33,130 nt of DNA from assembly GCA_015662355.1 (NCBI GenBank), contig DQUI01000066.1:1-33130 (forward strand), read 5' to 3'. The number at the start of each line of letters is the position of its first letter. The stretch's first letter is position 1. Of this stretch, positions 22,975 through 28,032 are shown piece by piece. This DNA is from Methanothermococcus okinawensis. Its GTDB lineage: Archaea > AGJL01 > Methanococci > Methanococcales > Methanococcaceae. A program made the position numbers and the translations under genes. The notes under the pieces are model-generated. The model had not been told where the DNA came from. It made no database searches and saw only the letters and a list, made by a program, of their open reading frames with translations.

Positions 22975-22977
22975 ATT
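22966..22977 (+). promoter_or_regulatory. SD plus candidate ATT start codon of signal peptidase
   Basis: AGGTGAT is followed by ACT and then ATT at 22975-22977. The frame is open into the signal peptidase ORF, and the added residues [15 protein letters not shown] form a plausible cytosolic N-terminus. The only canonical alternative, ATG 23023, has a weak GAG 3 nt upstream. Confidence 0.55.
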
Positions 22978-23571
22978 AAGATAATTTCAAAGTGGATAAA
23001 TCCTAAAAAAGTTATTGAGTGGATGATATTCTTAATAGTTTTTTTTCTTCTCTGGAGTCATGTGAACGTAGTAGTGTCTAACAGTATGTATCCTGTAATG
23101 AAGAGGGGAGATCTAGTAGTTGTGGAGAATGCACCTTGGGAGTTTAACCCTGAGGATGTTGAGGTAGGGGATATTGTGATCTACGACGCCCACTGGCCCC
23201 TTGGAGGTAACAGAATAACTTACGTCCTCCAGATAGATAACAAAACCTTGGAATTATATGAGGGAGATAATACTAGACCTGTAGTCCATAGGGTGATAGA
23301 TAAGATAAACATTGAGGGTAACTACTATATAATTACAAAGGGGGATAACAACCCTACCTACGATCCAGAACTTATCCCCCTAGATCAGATAAAAAAAAGG
23401 GTAGTAACAGTTAATGAAAAACCTTTAGTTATCCCCTATGTGGGCTATATCTCTATATACCTGAAAAAATATATATGGATAGTTCTCCCTCTAATAGTAC
23501 TATGGGTAGTATACGACTACGTTATAAAATACATTAAAGAGGTGAAAGGTTGGAGAACCAGGAAGAAGTAG
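22975..23571 (+). CDS. Type I signal peptidase, archaeal/Sec11-like
   Basis: A membrane serine protease removing signal peptides from exported proteins. About 198 residues if started at ATT 22975, or 182 from ATG 23023. Basic N-terminus, membrane segment (about 17-34), catalytic-serine motif SNSMYP (Ser37), [21 protein letters not shown] with the histidine that replaces lysine in archaeal/ER-type enzymes (about His105), [10 protein letters not shown] with the conserved aspartates, and a second C-terminal membrane segment ([18 protein letters not shown]). Bacterial LepB has Ser-Lys instead. It is the first gene of an operon with aIF1A (22-nt overlap), RIO kinase and a KH protein, and is divergent from selD. 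The ATT start is supported by a perfect SD at the standard spacing. Confidence 0.92.
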
Positions 23572-23852
23572 TGAGAGTAAGAATACCGAGAAAGGATCAA
23601 AATGAAATACTTGGAGTAATAGAACAGATGCTTGGAGCCAGTAGAGTAAGGGTGAGATGTGTAGATGGAAAGGTTAGAATGGGTAGAATCCCAGGGAAGT
23701 TAAAGAGAAAGATATGGATAAAGGAGGGAGATGTGGTAATAGTGTCCCCCTGGGAGGTGCAATCTGACAAGAAATGTGATATAGTTTGGAGATACACCAA
23801 GAATCAAGTTAGTTGGCTGGAAAAAAAAGGCTATCTTAAGGATCTCTTCTAA
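23550..23852 (+). CDS. Translation initiation factor aIF1A
   Basis: The archaeal homologue of eIF1A/IF1, which binds the A site of the small subunit and helps initiator tRNA and start-codon selection. 100 residues with the OB-fold pattern [56 protein letters not shown] and a C-terminal helix ([14 protein letters not shown]); GKLKRKIWI is characteristic. Start TTG 23550 with GAGGTGA 3-4 nt upstream, all inside the end of the signal peptidase gene, so translation is probably coupled. The neighbours on either side seem to use ATT and ATA starts, which this factor may influence. Confidence 0.95.
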
Positions 23853-23855
23853 AGG

Positions 23856-23867
23856 GGGGATAGTATA
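23856..23867 (+). promoter_or_regulatory. SD plus candidate ATA start codon of RIO kinase
   Basis: GGGGAT is followed by AGT and then ATA at 23865-23867, four nt beyond the aIF1A stop. No ATG, GTG or TTG occurs in this frame before the internal ATG 24012, which lies within the conserved DRRTLM helix of RIO1 proteins. Confidence 0.65.
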
Positions 23868-24698
23868 GGGAGGAGAAAAAAATCCCTTGACAACACTTTA
23901 AAGGAGGAGATACAACTCGATAGAGAATATCAGAAAGAGATATTAGAGAGGGAGAGGAAGTTTTTAGAGGATTTAAAAACGGAAGATGGAGTATTTGACC
24001 GTAGAACACTTATGGTACTTTACAGCCTACTCTGTGGAAAACATGTGGACAGATATATAGGTATTATAAACTCTGGAAAGGAGTCTGTAGTATTTTCAGC
24101 TGTTAAGGGAGATATGTACTTGGCTGTAAAGGTGTATCGTGTTGCCACCTGTGATTTTAAAACTATGTGGAAGTACATCCAGGGGGATCCAAGGTTCCAT
24201 CTAAGTAGGAGCTCTACGAGGAAGATCATATATACCTGGGTTGAGAAGGAGTTTAGAAATCTTAAGAGGGCAAACAACTATGTAAACAGTCCTAAGGCCA
24301 TACTTAGAAGGGAGAATGTACTCCTTATGGAGTTGATATGTGACGAGAACGGGGTGCCCTCTCCAAGGTTAAAGGATGCCCTAGATGTAGACTACGAAGA
24401 GATGTATAGTAGGATAAGAAAGGATATGAGGATCCTCTACAGAGATGCCCAGTTAGTTCATGGGGATCTCTCCGAGTACAACATACTTGTTAAAGATCAT
24501 GAACCTTACTATATAGATTTCTCCCAGGGGGTTGTTGTTAGACATCCCCTAGCTAAACCTCTACTTATAAGGGATGTTAAAAACATCTGCAGTTTCTTTA
24601 AGAGGAAAGGGGTAGATTGCCACTATAGGGAGTTATACAGATACATTACAGGGGAGGAACTTAATCCCCTAGACGAGGAGTTGGCAGAGGAGTACTAA
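23865..24698 (+). CDS. RIO1-type serine/threonine protein kinase
   Basis: An atypical kinase/ATPase of small ribosomal subunit maturation. About 277 residues from ATA 23865; the ORF track (228 aa from ATG 24012) cuts off 49 residues that contain a charged helix (EEIQLDREYQKEILERER) and the start of the conserved GVFDRRTLM helix. Core: ISG-type nucleotide loop INSGKESVVF, lysine in LAVKVYR, catalytic loop VHGDLSEYNIL, metal-binding YIDFSQGV, and a C-terminal extension ending in ELAEEY. It has no winged-helix domain, so it is RIO1 rather than RIO2. It lies between aIF1A (12 nt upstream) and the KH protein, the usual archaeal order. Confidence 0.93.
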   Translation: MGRRKKSLDNTLKEEIQLDREYQKEILERERKFLEDLKTEDGVFDRRTLMVLYSLLCGKHVDRYIGIINSGKESVVFSAVKGDMYLAVKVYRVATCDFKTMWKYIQGDPRFHLSRSSTRKIIYTWVEKEFRNLKRANNYVNSPKAILRRENVLLMELICDENGVPSPRLKDALDVDYEEMYSRIRKDMRILYRDAQLVHGDLSEYNILVKDHEPYYIDFSQGVVVRHPLAKPLLIRDVKNICSFFKRKGVDCHYRELYRYITGEELNPLDEELAEEY

Positions 24699-26760: not shown

Positions 26761-27528
26761 TCATTTAACAGTACAGTATTTTGGAATCTCTGCACATTGA
26801 CAGCTTTTCTCCCTAGTATGGGGATGCTCTATAAAGTCCTCCACTGTATTTACTAACTTCTCCTCCATCTTCTTTACAACGTCAAAAACCTCATCTACAG
26901 TTAATCTATCCTTGGATATACCTGCAGCGTAGTTTGTCACTGTGCACAGGGAGCTGTAGCATAAACCTAGTTCCCTTGCAAGTGCTACCTCTGGATAACC
27001 GGTCATACCTACTACGTCCCCTAAACTTCTATAGAATTTTATCTCAGCTTTTGTCTCAAACCTTGGCCCCTCTGTACAGATATACACCCCCTCACTGTAG
27101 GGATAACCTCTCCTATCTAGTATGTCCCTGAGAATACTTACAACCTCTGGACAGTAAGGTTCTGAGAGATCTATATGCATCACTTTGTTATTTTCACCGT
27201 CGTAGTATGTAGAGGGTCTACTCTTGGTGAACTCAATAAAGTCCTGGGGTATGAAGAATCTCCCTGGCTCAATATATTCCTTTAAAGAGCCAACAGTATT
27301 TATACTTAGTATCCTCTCCACCCCTAACATCTTCAAGGCGTATATGTTTGCCCTGTAGTTTATCCTATGGGGGGGAATAGTATGTTTTAAACCATGTCTA
27401 AATAGGAGTACTACCTCATTCTCCCTGTCTAGTAGTACCCTCGCCTTTCCATATGGAGTATTTATAACCTCCTCCTTACCTCTCCTTAGTATAGAGGATA
27501 CCCCTGTACCTCCTATTATCCCTAATAT
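26761..27528 (-). CDS. Methylthioadenosine/methylthioinosine phosphorylase family (PNP/MTAP)
   Basis: Cleaves 5'-methylthio-nucleosides with phosphate, a purine and sulfur salvage step; in methanococci the relative of this gene is reported to prefer methylthioinosine. Full length is 255 residues if read from ATA 27528. The ORF track begins at TTG 27336 and loses 64 essential residues: the phosphate loop LGIIGGTGVSSIL and LLFRHGLKHTIPPHRINYRANI. The remainder has SINTVGSLKEYIEPG, CTEGPRFETKAEI, GMTGYPEVALARELG and TVTNYAAGIS, diagnostic of the family. No ATG, GTG or TTG occurs before 27336, while GGTGAT lies exactly 3 nt before ATA. It is ten nt after the Tfx stop and before sua5. It may also serve salvage of radical SAM by-products. 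Confidence 0.93.
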   Translation of the reverse strand: MLGIIGGTGVSSILRRGKEEVINTPYGKARVLLDRENEVVLLFRHGLKHTIPPHRINYRANIYALKMLGVERILSINTVGSLKEYIEPGRFFIPQDFIEFTKSRPSTYYDGENNKVMHIDLSEPYCPEVVSILRDILDRRGYPYSEGVYICTEGPRFETKAEIKFYRSLGDVVGMTGYPEVALARELGLCYSSLCTVTNYAAGISKDRLTVDEVFDVVKKMEEKLVNTVEDFIEHPHTREKSCQCAEIPKYCTVK

Positions 27529-27537
27529 ATTATCACC
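27526..27537 (-). promoter_or_regulatory. SD plus ATA start codon of MTA phosphorylase
   Basis: Minus strand: GGTGAT (27537-27532), AAT, then ATA (27528-27526), followed in frame by the conserved GIIGGTG loop. The SD lies directly after the TGA stop of the Tfx gene. This is the clearest of the four isoleucine-codon starts because the N-terminal protein motif is unmistakable and has no alternative start. Confidence 0.8.
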
Positions 27538-27963
27538 TCAGTTATCCTCTAGGGTTTCCCACTCTAGGAAGAAGACATCCCCCTCTTCTGAAACACTTAT
27601 AACAAAGGGCTTTTTAACTATTCTCCTCTCTATCTTATCTCTCATATTTTTGTATATAAGATCTATTAGTTCCAGGGAGTTGTACTTCACATGTATATCT
27701 AGCTTGTTACACTCCCTATATAACATCTTAGGGATTTGGAATACATCCATACCCTCTTTAACGGTGAATCTTAGAGGTGCCATTATACTCTCGTATATCT
27801 TTAAGGTATTTCTCGCCTTCTCTATATTCTCCCTTGCCCTCTTCTCTATCATACATATGTTTGCCTTTGTGGTGTTCATTAGATGGGCTATCTCCTCCAA
27901 GGTTAAACCTTTCCTCCGTAGTTTAAGTACCTTTATCTGGGTCTCTGTTAGAAAGGATTCCAT
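27538..27963 (-). CDS. Tfx-family DNA-binding transcriptional regulator
   Basis: An archaeal regulator of the Tfx type, first described as binding the molybdenum formylmethanofuran dehydrogenase (fmd) promoter in Methanothermobacter. About 141 residues from ATG 27963. N-terminal helix-turn-helix: FLTETQIKVLKLRRKGLTLEEIAHLMNTTKANICMIEKRARENIEKARNTLKIYESI, a very typical Tfx segment; a C-terminal domain of about 80 residues may sense a ligand. The longer track ORF (from 28026) includes the promoter TATA, so I prefer ATG 27963 (27969 also possible). It is divergent from a three-gene membrane operon with a 20-bp inverted repeat in between, and is followed by the MTA phosphorylase gene. Its target here is unknown. 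Confidence 0.85.
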   Translation of the reverse strand: MESFLTETQIKVLKLRRKGLTLEEIAHLMNTTKANICMIEKRARENIEKARNTLKIYESIMAPLRFTVKEGMDVFQIPKMLYRECNKLDIHVKYNSLELIDLIYKNMRDKIERRIVKKPFVISVSEEGDVFFLEWETLEDN

Positions 27964-28001
27964 CTCCATCCCAACGTAAACTGTTGATAGTAATTTTAAA
28001 C

Positions 28002-28013
28002 TTTTATATATTA
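28002..28013. promoter_or_regulatory. TATA-like element between Tfx and the RND operon
   Basis: TTTTATATATTA reads as a TATA box in both directions. Toward plus, the expected transcription start (about 25 nt on) falls at about 28032, on the edge of the inverted repeat. Toward minus, it falls about 15-20 nt before the Tfx ATG. Confidence 0.45.
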
Positions 28014-28032
28014 ACTCTTTTAACATTTAATT

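Follow-up and report, generated by a model that had tools for sequence, protein, structure and literature searches.

In bacteria, infC, the gene of IF3, starts with AUU, and ATT, ATC, and ATA are all listed as starts in NCBI table 11; AUA is a poor initiator in bacteria. Archaea use aIF1, aIF1A, and aIF2 where bacteria have IF3. A review of archaeal initiation limits its list of start codons to AUG, GUG, and UUG (PMC7531240). In Sulfolobus, aIF1 is reported to favor discrimination against noncanonical starts, and the stability of the complex of aIF1 with the 30S subunit and mRNA is reported to depend on the Shine-Dalgarno (SD) sequence (PMC6237735). The locus described here resembles infC in that an AUH codon stands beside a strong SD sequence and is inferred to be read by an initiator tRNA that mispairs at the third base, but infC is a self-regulating bacterial exception, whereas here unrelated archaeal housekeeping genes carry AUA, AUU, or AUC. 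With the archaeal SD-led initiation of the review (PMC7531240), the locus shares a GGTGAT-family SD sequence and the 3-nt spacing of these genomes' canonical starts, but its AUA lies outside the three start codons given there. No report of AUA, AUU, or AUC starts in Methanococcales was found in the literature, but coverage was incomplete, and this is weak evidence of novelty. A near-cognate start as a kind is known; that an archaeal family uses it repeatedly and conserves it is not, as far as could be checked.

The window, which is the whole stretch of 33,130 nt that was analyzed, carries a nucleoside phosphorylase gene on its minus strand, and the coordinates of this gene and of the other features are collected in Table 1. 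From 27540, the minus strand reads TGA GGT GAT AAT ATA TTA GGG ATA ATA GGA GGT ACA GGG, in which GGTGAT (27537-27532) stands 3 nt before the ATA codon, as the original prediction had claimed, and GAGGTGAT (27539-27532) is complementary over 8 nt to the 16S tail, with 16S tails ending in GGATCACCTCC. The frame 5′ of the ATA is open for only three codons, back to the TGA that ends tfx. The prediction had also held that no ATG, GTG, or TTG exists in the upstream frame, and indeed the earliest canonical codon is the TTG at 27336, which is codon 65 when the ATA is counted as the first. A protein started there would be missing its first quarter, including the IGGTG loop and the RHG..H.IPPH.INYRAN block, which had been recognized in the in-frame sequence ahead of the called ORF. 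That recognition is correct. Family models match the ATA-started protein almost from its first residue (PF01048, residues 3 to 234; TIGR01694, residues 2 to 234). The spacing, too, is as normal for these genomes as had been supposed. Among gene pairs conserved between G005 and G009 whose canonical starts align, 258 of the 362 SD matches of at least 5 nt leave exactly 3 nt between their end and the start codon.

Table 1. Coordinates of the features discussed, as positions in the window
Feature	Position	Strand	Remarks
MTAP/MTIP-type nucleoside phosphorylase gene	26761..27528	-	255 codons, ATA as start codon
ATA start codon of the phosphorylase	27526..27528	-	TTG/GTG/ATG column of other Methanococcales
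Shine-Dalgarno sequence GAGGTGAT	27532..27539	-	Ends 3 nt before the ATA; overlaps the tfx stop codon
TTG, first canonical codon in the phosphorylase frame (codon 65)	27334..27336	-	A start there loses the active-site N terminus
tfx (Tfx-type DNA-binding regulator) gene	27538..28026	-	TGA stop (27540-27538) 9 nt before the ATA
Signal peptidase I gene	22975..23571	+	ATT start, AGGTGAT ACT ATT (TTAGGTGAT ACT ATT)
aIF1A gene	23550..23852	+	TTG start; sits between signal peptidase I and RIO1
RIO1-type kinase gene	23865..24698	+	ATA start, GGGGGGAT AGT ATA

Phosphorylase orthologues were read in 26 relatives besides the window genome, other Methanococcales being where the prediction had suggested looking for an ATG at the same place. 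TTG, GTG, or ATG occupies the exact start column in 20 relatives, which include three genomes of the window genome's genus (G003, G009, and G011) together with representatives of the order's other genera. ATA occupies it in all seven genomes of one clade of that genus (G000, G001, G002, G004, G005, G008, and G010, the window genome included), in each case three codons before the IGGTG loop and 3 nt after GGTGAT, GGTGGT, or GGTGGA. The six further ATA genomes, among which G005 is a single contig, show phosphorylase protein identities of 66 to 84%. The same start context is present in four public records (L031, L032, L034, and L035) of Methanothermococcus MAGs and a single-cell genome, which probably correspond to the genomes G001, G010, G002, and G008. 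No relatives were found in viral contigs. The seven ATA sequences form a clade on the protein tree with support of 99/98, and on this tree one NTG-to-ATA change accounts for all of them. In-frame stops lie 3 to 4 codons upstream of the ATA in all seven genomes, and the start is therefore confined to a handful of codons, and only ATA among them has both the start column and the spacing. The invariance of its third base is weak evidence when taken alone, because ATA is likewise invariant in three further all-Ile alignment columns, and the Ile codons of this genome group are mostly ATA.

The data on the start of the phosphorylase directly show its position, its SD sequence, its conservation, the coding selection downstream of it, the lack of alternatives, and the recurrence of such starts in other genes. 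The predicted AUA start is supported as the sole frame-compatible one, in the same column and at the same SD spacing as the canonical starts of the orthologues and kept in six further genomes, but it is not unique, as AUA, AUU, and AUC starts recur in many genes of the genus, including two others in the window. That the phosphorylase is translated from this AUA by ordinary Met-tRNAi placed by the SD sequence, with the same tolerance acting in other genes, is given a probability of about 0.92, in the absence of protein evidence. In the mechanism proposed, the 16S 3′ tail would pair with the 8 nt of the SD sequence and set the AUA three nucleotides downstream, and with such a strong SD sequence at optimal spacing, ordinary Met-tRNAi (anticodon CAU) would be accepted in the P site despite the third-base mismatch. 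The initiator tRNA would insert Met at the AUA; the use of Met-tRNAi, an N-terminal Met, and a lower initiation rate are all inferences. The same tolerance would serve the other AUA, AUU, and AUC genes of the genus and, for one gene, the whole family Methanococcaceae. aIF1, the CAT initiator tRNA, and the anti-SD sequence are all ordinary looking in G005; the aIF1 bait sequence served only for locating the gene.

The rival reading that survives best, improbable as it is, also places initiation at the AUA but assigns it to an unusual decoder, for example an initiator tRNA with a special modification or a tRNA for Ile, such that the first residue or the start code would differ. AUA, AUU, and AUC all serve as starts, as they would for a third-base-blind reader, but in G005 and G009 the initiator tRNA shows nothing unusual in its CAT anticodon and has the three expected G-C pairs, and ATG is still the majority start, with 502 of 594 training starts. 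An N-terminally truncated phosphorylase made from a downstream canonical start, for which standard gene callers would choose the TTG at 27336, is very unlikely. Among the five closest ATA genomes, codons 2 to 64 differ at 22 to 52% of third positions and at 3 to 11% of first and second positions, as in the rest of the gene, and because the changes are concentrated at third positions, these codons are translated. The purifying selection acts on a segment that contains the phosphate loop and the RHG..PPH region, and the position of the first downstream canonical codon differs from one ATA genome to the next, ranging from codon 10 to codon 65.

The tfx gene lies directly upstream of the phosphorylase in all seven ATA genomes (L001, L002, L003, L004, L006, L008, and L009), with its stop 8 to 12 nt ahead of the ATA, and it is absent from this position in the six canonical-start relatives examined. 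Read-through of the tfx stop into a Tfx-phosphorylase fusion has some points in its favor, as tfx is in the phosphorylase frame in six of the seven genomes, the stop is TGA in four, and these archaea carry tRNA-Sec (seen in G005). However, tfx ends with TAA in G002 and G010, and in G008 it ends with TAG and is out of frame, which excludes read-through as a common mechanism, and both the normally spaced SD sequence and the start column of the orthologues lie 3′ of the stop. A stop and frame conserved across the seven ATA genomes, by which stop-codon recoding (Sec or read-through) would be recognized, were not found, and a fusion is hardly tenable. A mini-ORF opening at the GTG within the SD sequence (GTG ATA ATA TAT TAG; GTG ATA GTA TAA in relatives) and reloading ribosomes on the AUA has equally little to recommend it; such a frame can be read in ATA genomes, but its GTG belongs to the GGTGAT SD sequence, which is present at canonical-start genes too, it has no SD sequence of its own, and its length and stop vary between genomes. 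An assembly or base-calling error hiding a real ATG, for which a single base would do in a genome of 90 contigs, is removed by the presence of ATA in this column in the six other genomes of the clade, including the single-contig G005, and by the agreement of the public records. For the AUA start itself, ribosomes that finish tfx 9 nt upstream probably reinitiate at the phosphorylase and aid the weak codon. Such translational coupling is inferred, and termination-reinitiation probably helps the AUA start, but the link is only suggestive because the tfx neighbor and the ATA are both common to one clade and amount to a single evolutionary event.

An Asn or Asp at the base-binding position of these enzymes governs the preference for 6-oxo or 6-amino purines. 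The window enzyme has the segment TNYAAG, which aligns with VNPAAG of 3ozb, whereas methylthioadenosine phosphorylase (MTAP) has TDYD. We take 3ozb to be a methylthioinosine phosphorylase (MTIP), although its PDB entry is titled methylthioadenosine phosphorylase. The window protein meets the equivalog cutoff of the MTIP model NF006599 (231 versus 223 bits) and just misses that of the MTAP model TIGR01694 (271 versus 274.85 bits). Because of this Asn and these model scores, the enzyme is probably, judging from its sequence, a methylthioinosine rather than a methylthioadenosine phosphorylase, with activity on methylthioinosine being inferred. The label MTA phosphorylase of the original prediction is accordingly corrected, as a 6-oxopurine-type Asn replaces the MTAP Asp, and the better name is MTAP/MTIP-type phosphorylase. 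The protein resembles the described MTAP and MTIP enzymes (PDB 1v4n and 3ozb; PF01048) in its full-length match, its phosphate loop, and its RHG, PPH, and NYRAN motifs, and the gene departs from them in its start codon, while its TNYAAG is nearer to MTIP 3ozb than to the TDYD of MTAP.

Other AUH starts were sought by a frame-by-frame comparison of G005 (1.50 Mb, complete) with 1.2 Mb of G009, in nonoverlapping pairs and with antisense, rRNA, post-TGA, frameshift, and shifted-start cases excluded. The names of genes outside the window are readings of the sequences and do not come from database searches. At least a dozen further genes (at least 15 in the G005/G009 comparison), with no NTG codon available in their conserved N-terminal region, have ATA, ATT, or ATC exactly 3 nt after an SD sequence, and for most of them relatives carry a canonical codon in that column (HisF, TPI, PurO, AroC, the adenylate kinase-like [AdK-like] gene, and RIO1). 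They make up about 1% of the gene pairs compared, a minimum figure, since any gene with a nearby NTG codon escapes detection. In a stricter automatic scan, ATH stood at the position 3 nt after the SD sequence in 8 of 33 and 6 of 15 matches, against 12 to 13% of codons, and control codons were scattered. In G005, the start is ATA in the phosphorylase, a glycosyltransferase, the AdK-like gene, and RIO1; ATT in g5_-_422751, a MoeA-like gene, signal peptidase I, and a lipoprotein (IKKLIALSVAGLLVLGVMLAGC); and ATC in TPI, a radical SAM protein, PurO, HisF, and g5_+_116650. In G009, AroC, SurE, a CobN-like gene, a transporter, and a lipoprotein start with ATT and the AdK-like gene starts with ATA; the AroC and SurE starts rest on the G005/G009 comparison and on no other genomes.

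The third base of these starts varies between genomes. The HisF start is ATC in G000, G004, G005, and G010, ATT in G006, and ATG, TTG, or GTG in 26 other genomes matching the pattern. PurO has ATC in G000 and G005 and ATT in G001 and G004, and TPI has ATC in G004, G005, G006, and G010 and ATT in G000. A drift among A, C, and T with AT fixed is what would be expected if pairing with the initiator anticodon were needed at the first two start bases alone. In the AdK-like gene (xKLAITGTPGVGKST), the start is ATA or ATT in every genome of family f1 that was read, across four genera, and ATG in all those of f2 that were read. In-frame stops just upstream make its AUH start unavoidable in G000, G001, G004, G005, G006, G010, and several g3 genomes; in G003, G011, G014, and G016, the start is ambiguous, with an in-frame NTG within or beside the SD sequence.

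Two further cases lie in the window. The signal peptidase I gene lacks any canonical start close to its SD sequence; it has a downstream ATG at 23023 without an SD sequence, and its G005 orthologue has ATT 3 nt after the SD sequence and no counterpart of that ATG. The RIO1-type kinase gene has no canonical start for 49 codons, and its start column holds ATA in G005 and ATG in G009.

It is likely that AUA, AUU, or AUC, with a drifting third base, is the routine start of about 1% or more of Methanococcaceae genes, that an AUN codon 3 nt past a strong SD sequence is a working start in these archaea, and that gene catalogues truncate or miss such genes. Annotation pipelines that accept only NTG probably mis-start, cut off, or drop real Methanococcales genes. 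AUH starts in housekeeping genes (HisF, TPI, PurO, AroC, and the phosphorylase) mean that aIF1-controlled selection tolerates a third-base mismatch given a strong, well-placed SD sequence, and the genes offer naturally occurring material for testing start-codon fidelity in archaea, whose lineage here shares the eukaryotic initiation core.

Many genes without an NTG start were rejected as candidates, as they were rRNA stretches, had a start shifted by one codon or an apparent frameshift, or were post-TGA frames. The conserved frames g5_+_1207688 and g5_-_1471132 and their G009 partners open directly after a TGA in both genomes and are probably selenoproteins that the mechanical ORF call cut in two. 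On the minus strand of G005, a conserved gene at 873362-874088 (g5_-_873362; within L111-L186) has an ATG that precedes a run of eight A's and is off the frame by one base; a slippage frameshift or a sequence error is possible. In G009, at 911850-912336 on the plus strand (g9_+_911850, L232), the conserved N terminus of the orthologue lies in another frame, as in a frameshift or a pseudogene.
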